Assembly: GCF_003430825.1 (NCBI RefSeq)
Contig: NZ_CP024047.1
Coordinates: forward strand, 2,170,001-2,234,000
Source: Natrarchaeobaculum sulfurireducens
GTDB lineage: Archaea > Halobacteriota > Halobacteria > Halobacteriales > Natrialbaceae
Direction: 5' to 3'
DNA length: 64,000 nt
In this document: positions 44,921 to 52,795 of the stretch, piece after piece
Layout of the letters: each line of letters starts with the position of its first letter
Numbering within the stretch: position 1 is the first letter of the stretch
Program-made: the position numbers and the translations under genes
Notes under the pieces: generated by a model
What the model was told of the DNA's origin: nothing
Database searches by the model: none
Seen by the model: the letters and a program-made list of their open reading frames with translations, nothing else

Positions 44921-45328
44921 TCAGACGATTCCGCGAACGAGCGAGCCGAAGATGGGGAGGCCGATTCCGGCGGCGGCCACGAGATACGAAACCGGCGTCA
45001 TCGCGAGGGCCGGTCCAATGGCCCCACCGAGGGAGACCGCGAACGTGAGGAGCACTATCAGTCCGACGCCGATTGCGCCCGCGACCGCTCGCCCGAGTGT
45101 CGGCGAGACGAGTCCGACCAGTGCGCCCGCGACGATCAGTCCGACCCAGTGCAACGAGGCGAGTCCCAGCCCGACGACGATGGCGACCCCTAGAGCAAGC
45201 GCGTGTGCCCGACCGTCGCTCCGTACGGTCTCGAGCCCCTCGCCGACCTGCTCGAGCAGTCGTGGCGACCGCGTCGCGCCTTCGTTGCTGTCCTCGGTCA
45301 CGTCCTCGAGTTCTGAGGAACCTGTCAC
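44921..45328 (-). CDS. multi-helix membrane protein, DUF456-like
   Basis: A 135-residue protein with a 40-residue acidic N-terminus and about four hydrophobic segments (LALGVAIVVGLGLASL; GLIVAGALVGLV; AGAIGVGLIVLLTF; VSYLVAAAGIGLPI). Glycine-rich helices resemble small DUF456-type proteins. The GTG start overlaps the stop of the acylase gene (GTGA), so they are co-translated. Its function is unknown. Confidence 0.6.
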   Translation of the reverse strand: MTGSSELEDVTEDSNEGATRSPRLLEQVGEGLETVRSDGRAHALALGVAIVVGLGLASLHWVGLIVAGALVGLVSPTLGRAVAGAIGVGLIVLLTFAVSLGGAIGPALAMTPVSYLVAAAGIGLPIFGSLVRGIV

Positions 45329-47817
45329 GGGTCCGACACCTCCGTAAAGCGGATCTCACTGCCCTCGAGCGTCGGGGCCATCGGTTTCAACTCGCCGTCG
45401 AGCCAGAGCCCGAACTGGTCGTCGTAATGAGGTGAGAAGTAGTCGCCCGAGTTCCCGCCAGGGAGGATCGCCCGCGCGTCGCCGCCGGGCTCGACGACCA
45501 TCCGCCAGCTCGCGCCGACGGCCGTCTCGACGCGGTAGTTCTTGACCGCCGCCCGCGAGCCGTCGGCGGGTCGCTCCTCGAGGTTTAAAAACGGCGCTTC
45601 GACGCCGAAGGGGTGTTCGACGACCCGCGTCGAGTTCCAGTCCCCGTAGCGCTCCCAGCCCTCGGCGTCGAGCTCCGCGAGTGCGTCCTCGAGTGCGTCG
45701 ACCATCGTCTCCGCTCTGGATCGGTCCGCGAACCACTCGCCGTCCGGCGACAGTCGCGCGAGGACCCAGTCGTTCGGATAGTAGGAGTCGTCGAGGTCGG
45801 CGTCGTCGAACGTCGGCTCGAGGACCCTCGTCCGAAAGTTATCGAGCCAGCGGGCGAACAGTAGAGCCCCTCGTGAATCCCGGTCCATCCGGTAGTCCCA
45901 CGCCTCGAGCGTCGCGGCGGCGTCCGCGAGGTCGTCGTCGGTTTCGTCGGCCGTCTCGAGGGTGACGACGTCGCGTTCCTCGAGTGCCTCGAGCAGGTCC
46001 GGGACCAGCTCGGCTGCCCGGCCGTCGTAGACGTCGGTCTGAAGCTCGCGGTGGAACTCGAGGTCCGTCGGCTCGCCCGAGTCGAGGCGCTCGTCCAGTC
46101 GGTCGTAGATGCGCGCCCCGCGATAGGGGGTTGCGTAGGCGACGCCGACGTAGTGGTTGGGGTCGTCGACGACGCGCTGGTTCGCCGTCGCGAGGGCGTC
46201 CGCATCGATCGCGTGGGGTTTCTCCTCGAACGGGACGAAGCCGTCCCAGGAGGACTCCCCGAAGGGGGTGAAACCAGCCCACTCGCCGTCACCGGCCGAG
46301 CCGTCGAAGACGCGATTGCCGGAGACCACCTCGCCGTCGATGGTGCGAATCGGGAGCTTCCCCGTCGCGTAGTAGAGCGTGCGCCCGTCGGAATCCGCGT
46401 AGACGAGGTTCTGGGTCGGCAGGTCGAATTTTCGGGTCGACTCGAGGACGTCTGTGAGCCCGTCGCTGCGCTCGTACTCGTAGATGGCTTCGGTGGTCCG
46501 GGTCGCCGTGTGGCCCGTCCAGGCGACGCCGACGGTCTGGCCCTCGCGCTCGAGGATGGGGCCGTGGACGGTCTTTCTGATCGTCACCGTCCGTTCCTCG
46601 CCGCCGTCGACGGCGATCTCTCGCGTGTCGGTCTCGAACGCGCGCCACTCGTCGTCGTAACGGTAGCGCTCGCCGTCGTCGTCGATCTCGTATTCGTAAC
46701 AATCGAGGACGTCCGCGCCGACATTGGTGAACGACCACGTCCCCGTCTCGTTCGCGCCCGTAATGATGAACGGTACACCGGGGAACGTCGCACCGCAGAC
46801 GCTCGTCTCCGGCGTTACAACGGCCTGTTCGTACCACAGCGGCGGCGTCATGAGCGCGAGGTGGGGGTCGTACGCGACGATCGGAGAGCCGCTTTCGGTG
46901 TGCTCGCCCGAGACGACCCAGCTGTTCGAGCCGACGCCCGTCGGTGACTCGAACCGCGAGAGCCAGTTCGTGAGTTGAGCGCCTACCGACCCGACGTCCC
47001 CCTCGTCCGCCCCGCCACCGTCGGCTCCGCCGTCCGGGCCGTCCCCGTCCGAACCACCGCGTTCGTCGGGTTCGGCTCCGTCGGCGTCGTTTAGGTCGTC
47101 CTCGAGCGTGTCGGCGTCGATTTCGTCTCGGAGAATCGGGGTGTCGTGGTCCATCCGCTCGGGATAGAGATCTCCGAGGACGTCGTCGCCGAGTCGATCG
47201 GCGATCAGTTCACGGCGGAGTTCGTCGAAATTGCCCGTGAGGTCCCAGGAGATCTGTTTTTCCATCAGCATCGAGTCGACGGGCGTCCAGGGGTCGGGCT
47301 CGTAGCCGAGCAACTCGAACTCGAGGGGGAGTTGTTCGTCATCGATCGCTGCGTTGACACCGCCAGCGTAGGCCTCGACGAGCGGCCCAGCGGACGTCTC
47401 GGCGACGAGATCCCAGGTCGCCTCGGCCGCGCCAGCGAAGTCCATCTGGACGTAGAAGACGTCGTCCTCGAGCGTCGCCTCGCCGGCGAGTTCCGACACC
47501 TGACCGCGCAGTACGCGGCGTTGAAGATCGAGCTGGAACAACCGGTCGAACCCCTGGACGTAACCGACGGCGAAGTAGGCCGCCGTTTCGTCGTCGGCTT
47601 CGACGGTCGGGACGCCGAACTCGTCGTATCGAACGCTCGCCTCGCCGTAGGGGTTCTCGACGCGGTCGGGCCGCGACCGGTCGGCCGCGTTCCACGCGGA
47701 GCCCGACAGCGGTGCGAACGACTCGAGGAGTGCTCGAGCCGAGGTGAGCGTCAACCCGCCGATGCCAGCGGCGAGCGCCCCGGCGAGCACGCCACGCCGT
47801 GTGGTGTCATCAGTCAC
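45325..47817 (-). CDS. penicillin-acylase-family Ntn hydrolase
   Basis: An 830-residue secreted amidase. A Tat signal (TTRRGVLAGALAAGIGG) leads into the alpha chain (NPYGEASVRYDEFGVPTVEA). An acidic low-complexity spacer (about 235-275) precedes the maturation site; the nucleophile is S297 in GVGSNSWVVSG, which becomes the beta-chain N-terminus. HGPILER and NQRVVDDPNHY are conserved in the beta chain. The family hydrolyses amide bonds of acylated compounds such as beta-lactams or acyl-homoserine lactones; the real substrate is unknown. It starts with GTG. Confidence 0.9.
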   Translation of the reverse strand: MTDDTTRRGVLAGALAAGIGGLTLTSARALLESFAPLSGSAWNAADRSRPDRVENPYGEASVRYDEFGVPTVEADDETAAYFAVGYVQGFDRLFQLDLQRRVLRGQVSELAGEATLEDDVFYVQMDFAGAAEATWDLVAETSAGPLVEAYAGGVNAAIDDEQLPLEFELLGYEPDPWTPVDSMLMEKQISWDLTGNFDELRRELIADRLGDDVLGDLYPERMDHDTPILRDEIDADTLEDDLNDADGAEPDERGGSDGDGPDGGADGGGADEGDVGSVGAQLTNWLSRFESPTGVGSNSWVVSGEHTESGSPIVAYDPHLALMTPPLWYEQAVVTPETSVCGATFPGVPFIITGANETGTWSFTNVGADVLDCYEYEIDDDGERYRYDDEWRAFETDTREIAVDGGEERTVTIRKTVHGPILEREGQTVGVAWTGHTATRTTEAIYEYERSDGLTDVLESTRKFDLPTQNLVYADSDGRTLYYATGKLPIRTIDGEVVSGNRVFDGSAGDGEWAGFTPFGESSWDGFVPFEEKPHAIDADALATANQRVVDDPNHYVGVAYATPYRGARIYDRLDERLDSGEPTDLEFHRELQTDVYDGRAAELVPDLLEALEERDVVTLETADETDDDLADAAATLEAWDYRMDRDSRGALLFARWLDNFRTRVLEPTFDDADLDDSYYPNDWVLARLSPDGEWFADRSRAETMVDALEDALAELDAEGWERYGDWNSTRVVEHPFGVEAPFLNLEERPADGSRAAVKNYRVETAVGASWRMVVEPGGDARAILPGGNSGDYFSPHYDDQFGLWLDGELKPMAPTLEGSEIRFTEVSDP

Positions 47818-47988: not shown

Positions 47989-49155
47989 TCAGAGCGACTC
48001 GGGCTCGAGCCAGCGGACGCCGCGTCTGAGCAACGAGAGGGCTACGGCCGCGAGCAGACAGTACAGCGCGAGCAACAGCCAGGTCGTCGTCGTCGGGTTA
48101 CCGAGCGCGAACTTCGCGACGGTGTTGGCCGGGTGTTCGGGGAGCCCCACGGAGACGACCAGCGCGGCCACGATTCCGATCGAGTACAGCAGCTGAGCCT
48201 GCCGTCTGTCCGGCGCAGCGAGAGCTGTCGCTGCGGCGACAGCGACGACGAGCAGTGCCAGCGCGAAGACGAACGCCACCAGCGCGAGCGGGTTCGCGAT
48301 CGCCGTCCCGTTGAGCGCGAGCAGCGCCAGCCAGGCGAGCGCCTGGATGGGGGCCAGCGCCGCGGTCGCGAGCAGTTTCGCATCGACCACGTCGACGAAC
48401 GAGAGCGGGGCGACCCGGAGCAACTCGAGCGTTCCGCGCTGGCGCTCTTCGATCAGCGAGTCGACGAGTATCGACCCGCTCAGAAACACCGGCAAGAAGA
48501 GTAACAGCGGGAGCAAGATGGTGTACGTGAACCCGACGTACGGGCTCGCGTCGATCGCTTGGGGCACTGCAAGGGGCGTCTCTGCCAGCCGATCTTCGTT
48601 CTCGAGGCGTTCCTGGTGCTCGACGGTCTCGAGGGCATCGCGGAGCTGGACGACGAGCAGCGTCGTTGCGAGTCCTTCGTCGGGCACGGTAGTTCTGACG
48701 ACGAGCCGGTCGTCGTCGTCCCTGTTCGCATCGAGGACGGCGACGACCTGGCCGGTGTCGAAGTCCGCGTGAGCCTGGCTGCGATCGTCGTAGGAGACGG
48801 GGGTGAGCCCGTCCTGCCTGCTGGACACTGAGAGCAATTCGTCAGGGTCCTCGCCCGTCACCGCGACCTCCATCTCGTGGCCGTCGACGCCGCTCGGATC
48901 GTACATCGTGACGAGCCCGACCACCAGGAACGAGGAGAACGCGGCGATGAACAGTTGGATCGCGATCGCGAGGACGATCGTCTTCTCCGAACGGAGCGAG
49001 CGGAGTTCTCGGCGCACGACGGCTCCCCGGGCCGTCCAGATCGACCCGGAGTTTGCGTCGCTGCGCTCACGTGCGGGCGGGTTCGGGCCGCGCGAACCGG
49101 ACCCCGGCTCGTCGCTTCTCCGCCGCCACGCCTCGCGGTCTCGGTCAGCCGACAA
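47989..49155 (-). CDS. ABC-2 type exporter permease
   Basis: A 388-residue permease with one N-terminal helix (TIVLAIAIQLFIAAFSSFLVVG), a ~130-residue extracellular domain, and five C-terminal helices. EERQRGTLELLRVAPLSF after the second helix is the ABC-2 coupling loop that contacts the ATPase. It overlaps the next gene by 11 nt and appears to start with TTG 49155, which is unusual; no ATG is available before the first helix. It is the last gene of a three-gene transporter operon. Confidence 0.85.
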   Translation of the reverse strand: MSADRDREAWRRRSDEPGSGSRGPNPPARERSDANSGSIWTARGAVVRRELRSLRSEKTIVLAIAIQLFIAAFSSFLVVGLVTMYDPSGVDGHEMEVAVTGEDPDELLSVSSRQDGLTPVSYDDRSQAHADFDTGQVVAVLDANRDDDDRLVVRTTVPDEGLATTLLVVQLRDALETVEHQERLENEDRLAETPLAVPQAIDASPYVGFTYTILLPLLLFLPVFLSGSILVDSLIEERQRGTLELLRVAPLSFVDVVDAKLLATAALAPIQALAWLALLALNGTAIANPLALVAFVFALALLVVAVAAATALAAPDRRQAQLLYSIGIVAALVVSVGLPEHPANTVAKFALGNPTTTTWLLLALYCLLAAVALSLLRRGVRWLEPESL

Positions 49156-51259
49156 GGGCGACCACCCCCAGATTGTAAGCCGCGTGCATCAGTGTCGCAA
49201 GCACGAACGCGACCGCGTAGGTCGACTGGCTGTGGGCGGCCCCGAACGCGGCGACGACCGCCGTCACGACATGGAGGACGAGCGGGGCGAGAAACAGTGC
49301 GACGAGGACGAGTGGCTCGCTCGAGAGGGCGGGGCCGAACGCGGCGACGCCGACGGTTAGTTCCGGGAGCCCGACGAACTGGACGGCGTGAGTGACCTTC
49401 TCGCCGAGGAAGAAGCCGACGCCGGAGAGCACGCCGAGGGCGGCCGCCACGCGAAGTGAGGCGTCGAACCGCGAGCGGGCGAAGCCGGCGTAGACGTGGA
49501 TACTCTTGGCGAACTCCTCGATCGCCGCGGCGAGGACGAACACGACCGGGAGCGCGATCGCCTCGGGGACGGCAAAGAGCAACGCGACGACGAGCAACTG
49601 TGCCGCGAAGACGAACGGGATAAACAGCGCAGAGAGGACGAACGGGCTCGCGTAGGGGTGAACGCGACTCGAGATCGCGTCGATCTGACTGACGATGGCG
49701 TCGACGGCTTTCGACGGGATCGCCTTCTGTGCGAACATGTCCTCTTCGCGGTAGACGCCGATCCCCAGAAGCGCACAGACCGCCGCTCCGAAGTAGAGCG
49801 GGCCGGTCGAAAAGAGGTACTCGGCGAGGCGGACTGATTCTCCCTGGAGGTCCATCACGATCAGCGTCAGCGGCGAGATCAGCGCGATCGGCGTCACGTC
49901 CGTAAAGATCGCCGGGACGAACGCGTACGTCGTCAGGACGACGCTGATCGTGACGGTGACGAACGTGAGTTCCTTGAACGACCGGGCGAACATGGCCCCG
50001 GTGAACGTCGCGGCCAGAAAGGCGAGCGCGATCGGGATGGCCCCAGCGATCGAGAGGAGCCCGCCGCCGATCGCGAGTGCGATGGCAGTCGAGATCCCGA
50101 CGAGTCCGAGCAGATACGGGAGCGTCTTCCCGGCGACGATCTCGAGGCGGCCGGCGGGCGAGACCAACAGCAGCTCCCCCCGGCGCTTGATCCGTTCGTC
50201 CATGATCGTGCTGCCGTAGGCCTGAATCACGAAGTTCATCGGTACGACGAACAGGAACGCCAACACGAGCGACTGAAAGGGAAACGGCGGCGAGAGCGTC
50301 CCGGGCGTCGCAGGAGCTGTTTGCTCGGCCGCGTGTCCGCCTCCAACGTCCGGTACGGCAAGTTCGTCGTCCGCGCTGCCTACCCTGGCGTCGGCGCCAG
50401 CGGCGCCGTCAGGCTGTCGCTCACCGTCGTCTACTTCGTCATCGGCTCCGGGATCGCTATCGCCTGTCTCAAGCTCATTTTCGTCGTCCGCCTCGTCGTC
50501 AGCATCGGTACCGCGCTCTCTGTCGTCAGTCCTGGACTCAGCTCCGCCGTCCACCTCGTCGTCTCCGTTCTCGCCATCGTCTGTCCCGACTTCATCTTCG
50601 TCGTCCACCCCGTCGTCACCGGCTTCGGCTGCCGTCTCATCCGTCTCGGGCTCGAATCCCGTGGATTCGTCGCCGCCGTCGTCGACCGTCTCGTCGCCAG
50701 AGACGACGTCGCCGAGGTCGCGGTCCTGATACTCGAGCGTGACGAGCACGGGGTACGCCGCCGTTTCGTCGGTTTCGGCGGCCATTCGGCGCTCGTTGTA
50801 CGTTTCAACTGCACCTCGGAATGCGTCGTAGGCGGCTTCGCCGTTCGTCCCGACGTGGCCGATCTGGCCGTCGGCGATCACGACATCGACGTTCCCGTCC
50901 GCACCGCCGTCTTCCAAGGCGACGTCCGAGAGCGGGATCGGCCTGAAGGCGGTACTCTCTACGGCGACGTCGTGGTAGGGATCGCCCTCGTCGACGCCGA
51001 CGACGTAAATCTCGTCCTCGAGGGCGAGTCCCTCGTCGACGGCGGAGAAGCCGACGACGCCGGCGACGGCCACCATCGCGAGCACGAGAAGGATCGTCTT
51101 GCGGTCGACGGTCCCCATGCTCCGGGTGACCTCCCAGCGGGCGACCCGCACCGTCCGCGAGACGCGGCCACGGAGCCCGCCGGTTCCAGCCCCCGACCGC
51201 GGAACCGAGCCGCTGGAGTCGTCGGCTCGTTTCGCGTCGGCGTCGCGACCGTCGGTCAC
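49145..51259 (-). CDS. ABC-2 permease fused to a PrsW-like intramembrane protease
   Basis: A 704-residue protein. The N-terminal part is an exporter permease: helix 1 (TILLVLAMVAVAGVVGF), an extracellular domain with a very acidic low-complexity stretch (about 185-310), then helices including DERIKRRGELLLVSPAGRL, the ABC-2 loop. The last ~200 residues are a separate membrane domain with EEFAK (581-585), LVLHVV (H663) and LMHAAYN (H692), the metal-binding pattern of PrsW/CPBP-type proteases. The GTG start overlaps the ATPase stop. It may cleave a membrane protein linked to export (inference). Confidence 0.8.
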   Translation of the reverse strand: MTDGRDADAKRADDSSGSVPRSGAGTGGLRGRVSRTVRVARWEVTRSMGTVDRKTILLVLAMVAVAGVVGFSAVDEGLALEDEIYVVGVDEGDPYHDVAVESTAFRPIPLSDVALEDGGADGNVDVVIADGQIGHVGTNGEAAYDAFRGAVETYNERRMAAETDETAAYPVLVTLEYQDRDLGDVVSGDETVDDGGDESTGFEPETDETAAEAGDDGVDDEDEVGTDDGENGDDEVDGGAESRTDDRERGTDADDEADDENELETGDSDPGADDEVDDGERQPDGAAGADARVGSADDELAVPDVGGGHAAEQTAPATPGTLSPPFPFQSLVLAFLFVVPMNFVIQAYGSTIMDERIKRRGELLLVSPAGRLEIVAGKTLPYLLGLVGISTAIALAIGGGLLSIAGAIPIALAFLAATFTGAMFARSFKELTFVTVTISVVLTTYAFVPAIFTDVTPIALISPLTLIVMDLQGESVRLAEYLFSTGPLYFGAAVCALLGIGVYREEDMFAQKAIPSKAVDAIVSQIDAISSRVHPYASPFVLSALFIPFVFAAQLLVVALLFAVPEAIALPVVFVLAAAIEEFAKSIHVYAGFARSRFDASLRVAAALGVLSGVGFFLGEKVTHAVQFVGLPELTVGVAAFGPALSSEPLVLVALFLAPLVLHVVTAVVAAFGAAHSQSTYAVAFVLATLMHAAYNLGVVALVG

Positions 51260-52203
51260 GCCTCCGTCGCCTCCACCGACGACTCGCTCGCGATCTCGAG
51301 GAAGATCTCTTCGAGCGTCGGCGTCCTGGTCTGGATGTCGGTGATACGACCACCTTCGGCCTCGACGACCGCACGGATCGCCTCGACGGCGGCCATGTCG
51401 CCAACGACGTGTTCGATCTGTCCGTTCGTGCGATGGACCTCGAGGTCGTCGACCGTCGGGCCGTCAGCGTCGGCCGACGACGTACGAAGGCCGTCGCTCG
51501 CGTCGACTGTTGTGAAGACGCGGTACTCGGTACCGCCATGGGCCTCACGGATCGCCTCGATCGTCCCGTTGGCGACGATCCGGCCCTCGTTCATCACCGC
51601 GACACGGTCACAGATACTCTCGACGTGAAAGAGGTTGTGCGCACTGAAGACGATCGTCTTCCCCGTCTCGCTCAGTTCGCGGGTGAACTCGATGATGTAG
51701 TTCGTCGTTAGCGGGTCGAGTCCTGACGCTGGCTCGTCGAAGATGAGGACGTCGGGGTCGTTGACCAGCGCCCGCGTGATCGCGACCTTCCGTTTCATCC
51801 CCTTCGACATGTTCCCGATCCGTCGATCACGGTGCTCGAGGTCGAGTCGGTCGAGCGTCCGTTCGATCCGCTCGGTGGCGACCGACTGCGGGACGCCGTA
51901 GAGGTCGGCAAAAAACGCCAGATAACTCCGCGGCGTCATGTCCTCGTACAGCGGCGACTCCTCCGGGAGAAAGCCAAGCCGTCGCTGCATCGCCGGGTTG
52001 CCGGGTTCGAGGCCGGCGACGACGGCCGTTCCGCCGGTCGGCTCGATCAGTCCGGCAAGCATCTTCAACGTGGTCGTTTTCCCGGCTCCGTTCGGGCCAA
52101 CGACGCCGAAGACCTCGCCGCGTTCGATGGAGAACGTACTCCCTTCGACCGCCGCGAAGTCCCCGTACTCCTTTCGGAGGGCTTCGACTTCGACTATCGC
52201 CAT
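51256..52203 (-). CDS. ABC transporter ATPase
   Basis: ATP-binding subunit of the exporter, 315 residues. Walker [15 protein letters not shown], signature MSKGMKRKV (a variant of LSGGQ common in ABC-2 exporters), Walker [13 protein letters not shown] and switch SAHNLFHVE are intact. A C-terminal ~80-residue extension ([12 protein letters not shown] onward, ending [12 protein letters not shown]) is typical of the group. It is the first gene of the operon and overlaps the fused permease by GTGA. NatA/YhaQ-like exporters are the nearest relatives; the substrate is unknown. Confidence 0.9.
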
Positions 52204-52378
52204 TCGTTACTCGAGAGTGAGCACCACCCCCAGTAAAGTCTAGTGGCAGCCGAGGGTCTCGAAATCAAAGACGAACGCTCGACGGTACCGACTGAGAGTT
52301 CGTTTCGCCATCAGTCACTACGACAATCGGCGGTCGCGAGCGCAACATTCCATGTGCTCGACCACGTATCCATACTGG

Positions 52379-52795
52379 ATGACTCGTCTTCAGTGGACGT
52401 CGAGGCCGACGGGCCGACGACTCGAAGCGTCGCACGTGATCGCCGCGGCCCCCGACGACGCCTGGGAGGTCCTCGTCGACACGACTCGCTGGCCGACGTG
52501 GTCGCCGGTGATTTTCGGCGTCGACGCCACCGATCGGTACGTCCGTACCGGCACCAGTGGCCGCGTTCGTGCTCCCGGCGTCTGGCTTCCGTTTACCGTC
52601 ACCGATTGCCGGGAGCGATCGTGGACCTGGCGCGTTGCGGAACTGCCGGGTGCCACGCACCGAGTCGACGAACTCGGCACCGGCCGCTGTCGGGTCGTGT
52701 TCGAACTGCCACCGGCGAGCGTCGGCGCAGCGCCCGTCTGCCTCGAGGCGCTCGAGCGGATCGACGCCGTGCTCGAGGACAGCGAGTCGACCTGA
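52379..52795 (+). CDS. SRPBCC (polyketide-cyclase-like) protein
   Basis: A 138-residue protein with the START/Bet v1 helix-grip fold. ASHVIAAAPDDAWEVLVDTTRWPTWSP is the standard opening; FTVTDCRERSWTWRVAELPG and HRVDELGTGRCRVVFELP are conserved strands. It probably binds a hydrophobic ligand. ATG 52379 is chosen; an earlier ATG at 52352 is possible. It is followed by an HxlR regulator on the same strand. Confidence 0.8.
   Translation: MTRLQWTSRPTGRRLEASHVIAAAPDDAWEVLVDTTRWPTWSPVIFGVDATDRYVRTGTSGRVRAPGVWLPFTVTDCRERSWTWRVAELPGATHRVDELGTGRCRVVFELPPASVGAAPVCLEALERIDAVLEDSEST

Follow-up and report, generated by a model that had tools for sequence, protein, structure and literature searches.

In Bacillus subtilis, PrsW acts as the site-1 protease of RsiW. 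The predicted active site of PrsW proteases comprises the motifs EExxK and HxxxD together with an extra conserved histidine, which is absent from type II CAAX proteases (PMC4602095), and PrsW, CPBP and APH-1 proteins belong to the same superfamily (PMC4602095, PMC3482391). Fusions of PrsW to toxins and sensory domains (PMC3482391), as well as fusions of ABC permeases to CPBP proteases (NF041647), are already known. In S. aureus, lipoprotein-leader peptides are matured and released only if both the protease Eep and the exporter EcsAB are available (PMC7157817), and in S. thermophilus, PptAB exports only mature Eep-dependent peptides, for which direct delivery by Eep has been proposed (PMC7564271). 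No description of an ABC permease–PrsW fusion was found in our literature search, which covered mostly papers from outside subscription journals. The fusion described here is real, conserved over its archaeal phylum, poorly annotated, and testable.

The window analysed is a stretch of 64,000 nucleotides from a haloarchaeal genome of 3.79 Mb, whose closest relatives are Natrialbaceae. The fusion gene occupies positions 49145..51259 of the minus strand, begins with a GTG start codon and encodes a protein of 704 aa, in which an ABC-2/type V permease (residues ~28–511) is followed by a PrsW-type protease (residues ~535–704); when the same interval is read on the plus strand, several stops appear. 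The ORF proposed in the preliminary description proved exact, its strand being minus, and the residues named there, EEFAK (581–585), H663 and HAAYN (692–696), are all present in the 704-aa sequence. It is not a chance ORF, since 81 full-length haloarchaeal sequences could be aligned end to end, the homologues are 43–86% identical, and the fused gene occurs in 179 of the 242 sampled haloarchaeal genomes.

Two further genes adjoin the fusion gene. The first gene of the operon (51256..52203, minus strand) encodes a DrrA/GldA-like ABC ATPase of 315 aa, and its stop codon overlaps the GTG start of the fusion gene by 4 bp (GTGA, 51259–51256). This ATPase matches PF00005 with 102 bits and also PF13732, and its best NCBIfam model is TIGR01188, with 250.7 bits, under the cut-off of 312. 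On the other side, the fusion gene overlaps by 11 bp with the gene of a second ABC-2 permease (47989..49155, minus strand; 388 aa; PF12698, ABC2_membrane_3, 77.9 bits), which is the presumed heterodimer partner of the fusion protein. Such an arrangement is nearly constant: the ATPase gene lies on the same strand beside the fusion gene in 78 of 80 haloarchaeal loci, and the second permease gene, also on the same strand, overlaps or abuts it in 79 of 80. The ATPase and the second permease, which are absent from the preliminary description, form the real functional unit with the fusion protein.

The permease half (residues 28–511; 49727..51178, minus strand) consists, according to the full-length AlphaFold2 model (pLDDT 75.5, pTM 0.68), of a connecting helix, TM1 (53–76), an extracellular domain and TM2–TM6 (328–502). 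A VIA-align comparison gave Z 17.2 with ABCA1 (7tc0_A; 220 aligned residues, 3.3 Å) and Z 16.8 with NosY (7o0z_E; 210 aligned residues, 4.0 Å). The ABC2_membrane_3 profile is above its cut-off in relatives of the window protein and gives a match at E ≤ 1 in 38 of 53 haloarchaeal members. The modelled fold supports the assignment of this half to the type V/ABC-2 exporter permeases. An acidic extracellular region of more than 100 residues had been reported between parts of the permease, and it is indeed found between TM1 and TM2, where it extends over 152 residues (172–324), 38% of them D or E. Residues 177–324 of it (50288..50731, minus strand) are predicted to be disordered, with pLDDT below 50 over nearly the whole loop. 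The acidic stretch is longest in the lineage of the window protein, the haloarchaeal median being 96 residues and the fetched non-haloarchaeal members having 65–105. Because its length depends on the lineage and is greatest here, the loop is not a core feature; it is probably a halophilic decoration rather than a functional domain.

The PrsW-type protease domain (residues 535–704; 49148..49657, minus strand) has a predicted site formed by E581, E582, K585, E620, H663 and H692/N696, and in the full-length model the protease residues fall within four predicted transmembrane helices (566–594, 602–628, 649–676 and 678–703). The EExxK motif is represented by EEFAK (581–585) inside the helix 566–594, and the second motif, FxxxE, by FFLGE (616–620); in the final HxxxD/N motif, position 696 is N in 25 sequences and D in two of the 27 in the phylum-wide alignment. 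All 27 share the two glutamates and the lysine of the first motif, E620, K621, the extra histidine H663 and H692, whereas adjacent positions drift freely. Among the haloarchaeal proteins, E581, E582, K585, F616, E620, H663 and H692 are invariant in 53 of 53, and N696 is kept in at least 90%. The invariance of the presumed catalytic residues, while the rest diverges strongly, argues for an active site under selection. A lack of metal-site conservation in homologues had been named as the observation that would refute the proposal, and the opposite was found. The motifs match those described for the PrsW active site, extra histidine included (PMC4602095), and, from what is known of the family, the site is expected to be proteolytic.

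Profile searches detect this half with difficulty. At E ≤ 1, neither Pfam nor NCBIfam gives a match for the 704-aa window protein, and a PrsW-protease match was obtained for five of the 53 haloarchaeal members (best E 1.4e-9). The domain search proposed in the preliminary description succeeded with relatives and not with the window protein itself: PF13367, the cut-off of which is 23.5 bits, is exceeded by several orthologues (L056, 38.2 bits; L068, 32.4 bits; L078, 26.5 bits), and when genomes were searched with this profile, more than a dozen haloarchaea had the fused gene above the cut-off, in most cases in addition to an ordinary standalone PrsW. One ordinary standalone PrsW is encoded in the same genome as the window protein (G000:C3:401526-402095, L001; ~334 aa, PF13367 142 bits). 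Profile-profile comparison by hhalign, in which the C-terminal domain was set against 31 PrsW proteins of haloarchaea, gave a probability of 95.7 and E 9.7e-9, and in this register EEFAK is aligned with EEAVK, GFFLGEK with GFAAIEN, H663 with the histidine of GPGH, and HAAYN with HATYN. Standard annotation misses the protease half, as no PrsW call was made by Pfam or NCBIfam in the window protein or in ten non-haloarchaeal relatives; in these ten, Pfam recognised at most the permease half. The RefSeq name of a plasmid-borne homologue from Haladaptatus is just ‘ABC transporter permease subunit’.

Other protease families and a toxin were considered as well. The fusion is of the PrsW type and not of the CPBP type, because it has the extra histidine, carries a lysine at the place of the CPBP arginine motif, and scores far under the NF041647 cut-off. 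Membership in the CPBP family was rejected both by motif, K585 being invariant in an EExxK and not an EExxxR context, and by profile; the hhalign comparison with CPBP used a single CPBP sequence and carries no weight. The HExxH motif of site-2 (M50) proteases is absent from the 704-aa sequence. No toxin domain was found by Pfam, and the chain stops with the PrsW domain, at residue 704.

The C-terminal domain was also modelled separately with AlphaFold2 from the family alignment (pLDDT 88.4, pTM 0.85). Foldseek alone gave no significant match, and the VIA second look was the sole informative structural comparison. A PDB sequence search with the alignments found nothing relevant. The best match in it is APH-1 of gamma-secretase (5a63_C; Z 11.0, 159 aligned residues, 4.7 Å), and APH-1 chains account for three of the top five rows (5a63_C, 8oqy and 8oqz, with Z 11.0, 10.5 and 10.2). 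The remaining two are 7tm3_6 (Z 10.1) and 9c7u_C (Z 9.9), both of which we take to be TMEM147; for Rce1, Z is 5.3. Since the mere arrangement of helices can bring unrelated bundles to a Z of about 10, these matches support a PrsW/APH-1/CPBP fold in the model and do not prove it.

Neither APH-1 nor TMEM147 is known to be a protease itself; APH-1 is a scaffold in gamma-secretase, and TMEM147 belongs to the BOS complex. The fact that these proteins are the best structural matches would fit a non-catalytic C-terminal domain, a scaffold or membrane chaperone whose task would be to stabilise the permease dimer or to bind client helices. A scaffold needs none of the residues E581, E582, E620, H663 and H692, whose invariance in 27 sequences is expected of an active PrsW, and the aligner also gives such Z values for helical bundles. 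We therefore regard a non-catalytic role as quite improbable. Evidence from profile, motif, fold and conservation supports the joining of an ABC-2 permease and a PrsW-like protease in one chain, as put forward in the preliminary description.

The C-terminal domain was detected in 137 of the 295 genomes sampled across the phylum, and outside haloarchaea it is mostly found in ORFs of ~520–640 aa. In 20 loci fetched outside the class sample of the window, the permease part is present in 20/20, in one of them as two overlapping ORFs; the second permease lies beside the fusion in 20/20 and the ATPase next to it in 17/20, mostly as a divergent gene. The two domain identities within a single chain, the conserved site, the conserved three-gene unit and its wide distribution are established. 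About a quarter of the sampled haloarchaea are without the gene, and for this reason the fusion is not a universal housekeeping step.

Some divergent forms of the gene can be noted. In L144 (2941-4696), from a genome that is 78% complete, the fused gene appears as two overlapping ORFs, as if frameshifted, which may reflect a sequencing error or a real break. The most diverged members, L133, L142, L143 and L147, come from other families of the phylum and are without a Pfam PrsW match; their segment between motif 2 and H663 is shortened, while the motif residues are kept. A candidate ‘one in-frame TAG’ in many genomes of one family was rejected, as in seven fetched loci it is a stop just upstream of the start and represents neither a split gene nor readthrough.

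The two halves might be independent of each other, joined only for co-expression or co-localisation, with the protease acting on general membrane clients. PrsW domains do occur in many architectures (PMC3482391), and the same genome holds a separate standalone PrsW. Convenience of this kind accounts poorly for a phylum-wide fusion always with the same partner permease, for the retention of the linker residue E506 in 26 of the 27 sequences of the phylum-wide alignment, and for the domain not being seen in a stand-alone ORF in the phylum sample once fragments and the ordinary PrsW proteins are set aside. Mere co-expression thus appears improbable. The linker between the halves (residues 503–511, YREEDMFAQ) is strictly kept in haloarchaea, where YREED is invariant.

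The surroundings of the operon were searched for further components. A secreted acylase had been noticed downstream on the same strand and suspected of being related to the system. Its gene does lie there (45325-47817, 171 bp past the second permease gene). The suggested relation did not hold up: among Natrialbaceae loci, only a minority have the acylase next to the operon, as opposed to the near-universal ATPase and second permease, and because it is a neighbour only in this subset, it was rejected as a part of the system. When ORFs of at least 60 aa around the 80 haloarchaeal loci were clustered, an SRPBCC-type gene was the only frequent close neighbour besides the operon partners. This putative gene, so named from its sequence, is located in the window at 52352-52795 on the plus strand, divergent and next to the ATPase gene; with the same divergent position upstream of the ATPase in 37 of 80 loci, it is the most frequent additional neighbour.

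The preliminary description had also suggested looking for small substrate genes near homologues, and none is widely conserved around the 80 loci. No membrane-peptide family occurs near the operon in the ORF clusters of these loci. Among ORFs of 20–70 aa within 800 bp, one real-looking family was found, at 8 loci, and it is soluble. This family was later seen in 22 loci (L027 3508, L033 3135, L037 3134, L043 3848 and 18 more), mostly of Halorubrum and its relatives. It is a tiny conserved acidic protein of ~35–60 aa without a membrane segment; its core reads TMKDVSHTAPNxTSAxxVWERG, a run of E often closes the chain, and its gene lies 0.2–3 kb upstream, on the strand of the ABC operon. As there is no widely conserved membrane-peptide gene nearby, the substrate would have its gene at some other place in the genome or would be a whole class of molecules, for example signal-peptide remnants.

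The neighbourhood also bears on a regulatory explanation, according to which substrate sensing by the transporter makes the protease cleave a membrane regulator or damaged membrane proteins, while the ABC part exports an unrelated drug, lipid or ion. PrsW is known for a signalling cleavage, that of the anti-sigma factor RsiW, and its fusions to sensory domains are on record (PMC3482391). The permease and the ATPase resemble transporters of the DrrAB/ABCA/NosY type. Against this explanation, no regulator gene is conserved near the operon in the 80 haloarchaeal loci; furthermore, we know of no sigma/anti-sigma system of the RsiW kind in archaea. Regulation or quality control, which together with a scaffold role is the main alternative, seems rather unlikely.

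We tentatively prefer a reading, which we consider somewhat short of probable, in which the protease half cuts a membrane peptide or signal-peptide remnant and the fragment goes to the attached exporter. On the most economical reading, the operon encodes a heterodimeric type V (ABC-2) exporter composed of an ATPase, an ordinary permease and another permease that bears a PrsW-type protease at its C-terminus. Its substrate would be hydrophobic and already in the membrane, for instance a small membrane protein, a transmembrane segment that has been released or what remains of a signal peptide. Cleavage would take place inside the membrane at the E581/E582–E620–H663–H692 site, after which the fragment may move sideways to the attached ATP-driven permease and then out of the cell; the outcome would be a cleared membrane or a released peptide. 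By analogy with Eep and its exporters, the product of the protease may be the cargo of the exporter, and delivery of this type would become intramolecular in the archaeal fusion. The comparison with Eep is one of analogy and not of homology, because Eep belongs to a different protease family (M50). Two further points count against this reading: no substrate gene is widely conserved beside the operon, and the proteins structurally closest to the protease domain, APH-1 and TMEM147, are not known to be proteases. The role in peptide or signal maturation suggested in the preliminary description is plausible.

Archaea employ both signal peptides and numerous small membrane proteins, yet to our knowledge there is no established archaeal pathway for clearing or exporting hydrophobic remnants. 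With a phylum-wide exporter–protease fusion, the coupling of cleavage to export can be tested directly in tractable hosts, Haloferax for example, and such coupling, if true, would link membrane proteins of the PrsW/APH-1 type to ABC transport. A stronger version, which we consider distinctly unlikely, would make the fusion a one-piece protease–exporter, the first known single polypeptide to combine cleavage within the membrane with ATP-driven export of the peptide so produced. It would be kept throughout an archaeal phylum and might be the way in which these archaea release signal-peptide-derived peptides.

When the fusion is compared with known systems, the closest in layout is NCBIfam NF041647 (ABC transporter permease subunit/CPBP intramembrane protease, ~636 aa), which likewise has an N-terminal ABC permease and a C-terminal protease of the CPBP/PrsW/APH-1 superfamily. 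It differs in its CPBP-type EExxxR motif, in contrast to the PrsW-type EExxK and extra histidine found here, and in the scores, which are ~20–25 bits in this family (21.6 in the relative L034) against a cut-off of 435, with no match for the window protein. With PrsW (PF13367), all four motifs can be aligned and the profile is above cut-off in several members of the fusion family; however, the domain is fused here to an ABC permease, its motif 2 ends in EK and not in EN as in the haloarchaeal PrsW proteins compared, its motif 4 is HxxxN rather than HxxxD, and the window member lies below Pfam detection. The PrsW-dependent export of polymorphic toxins (Zhang et al. 2012, PMC3482391) is similar in that the PrsW domain has been proposed to couple extrusion and cleavage, but there PrsW is N-terminal to the toxin domain, whereas the present chain has no toxin domain and carries PrsW on the C-terminal side of a permease. 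NosY and ABCA1/ABCA4, type V permeases, share the permease fold (Z 16–17 over ~210–225 residues) and have no protease domain, and in the present operon two different permeases share one ATPase. The Eep and EcsAB/PptAB pairs of Firmicutes resemble the proposed system in that an intramembrane protease and an ABC exporter act in series on hydrophobic peptides; in those pairs, the components are separate proteins and the protease is of the site-2 type (M50), not PrsW.
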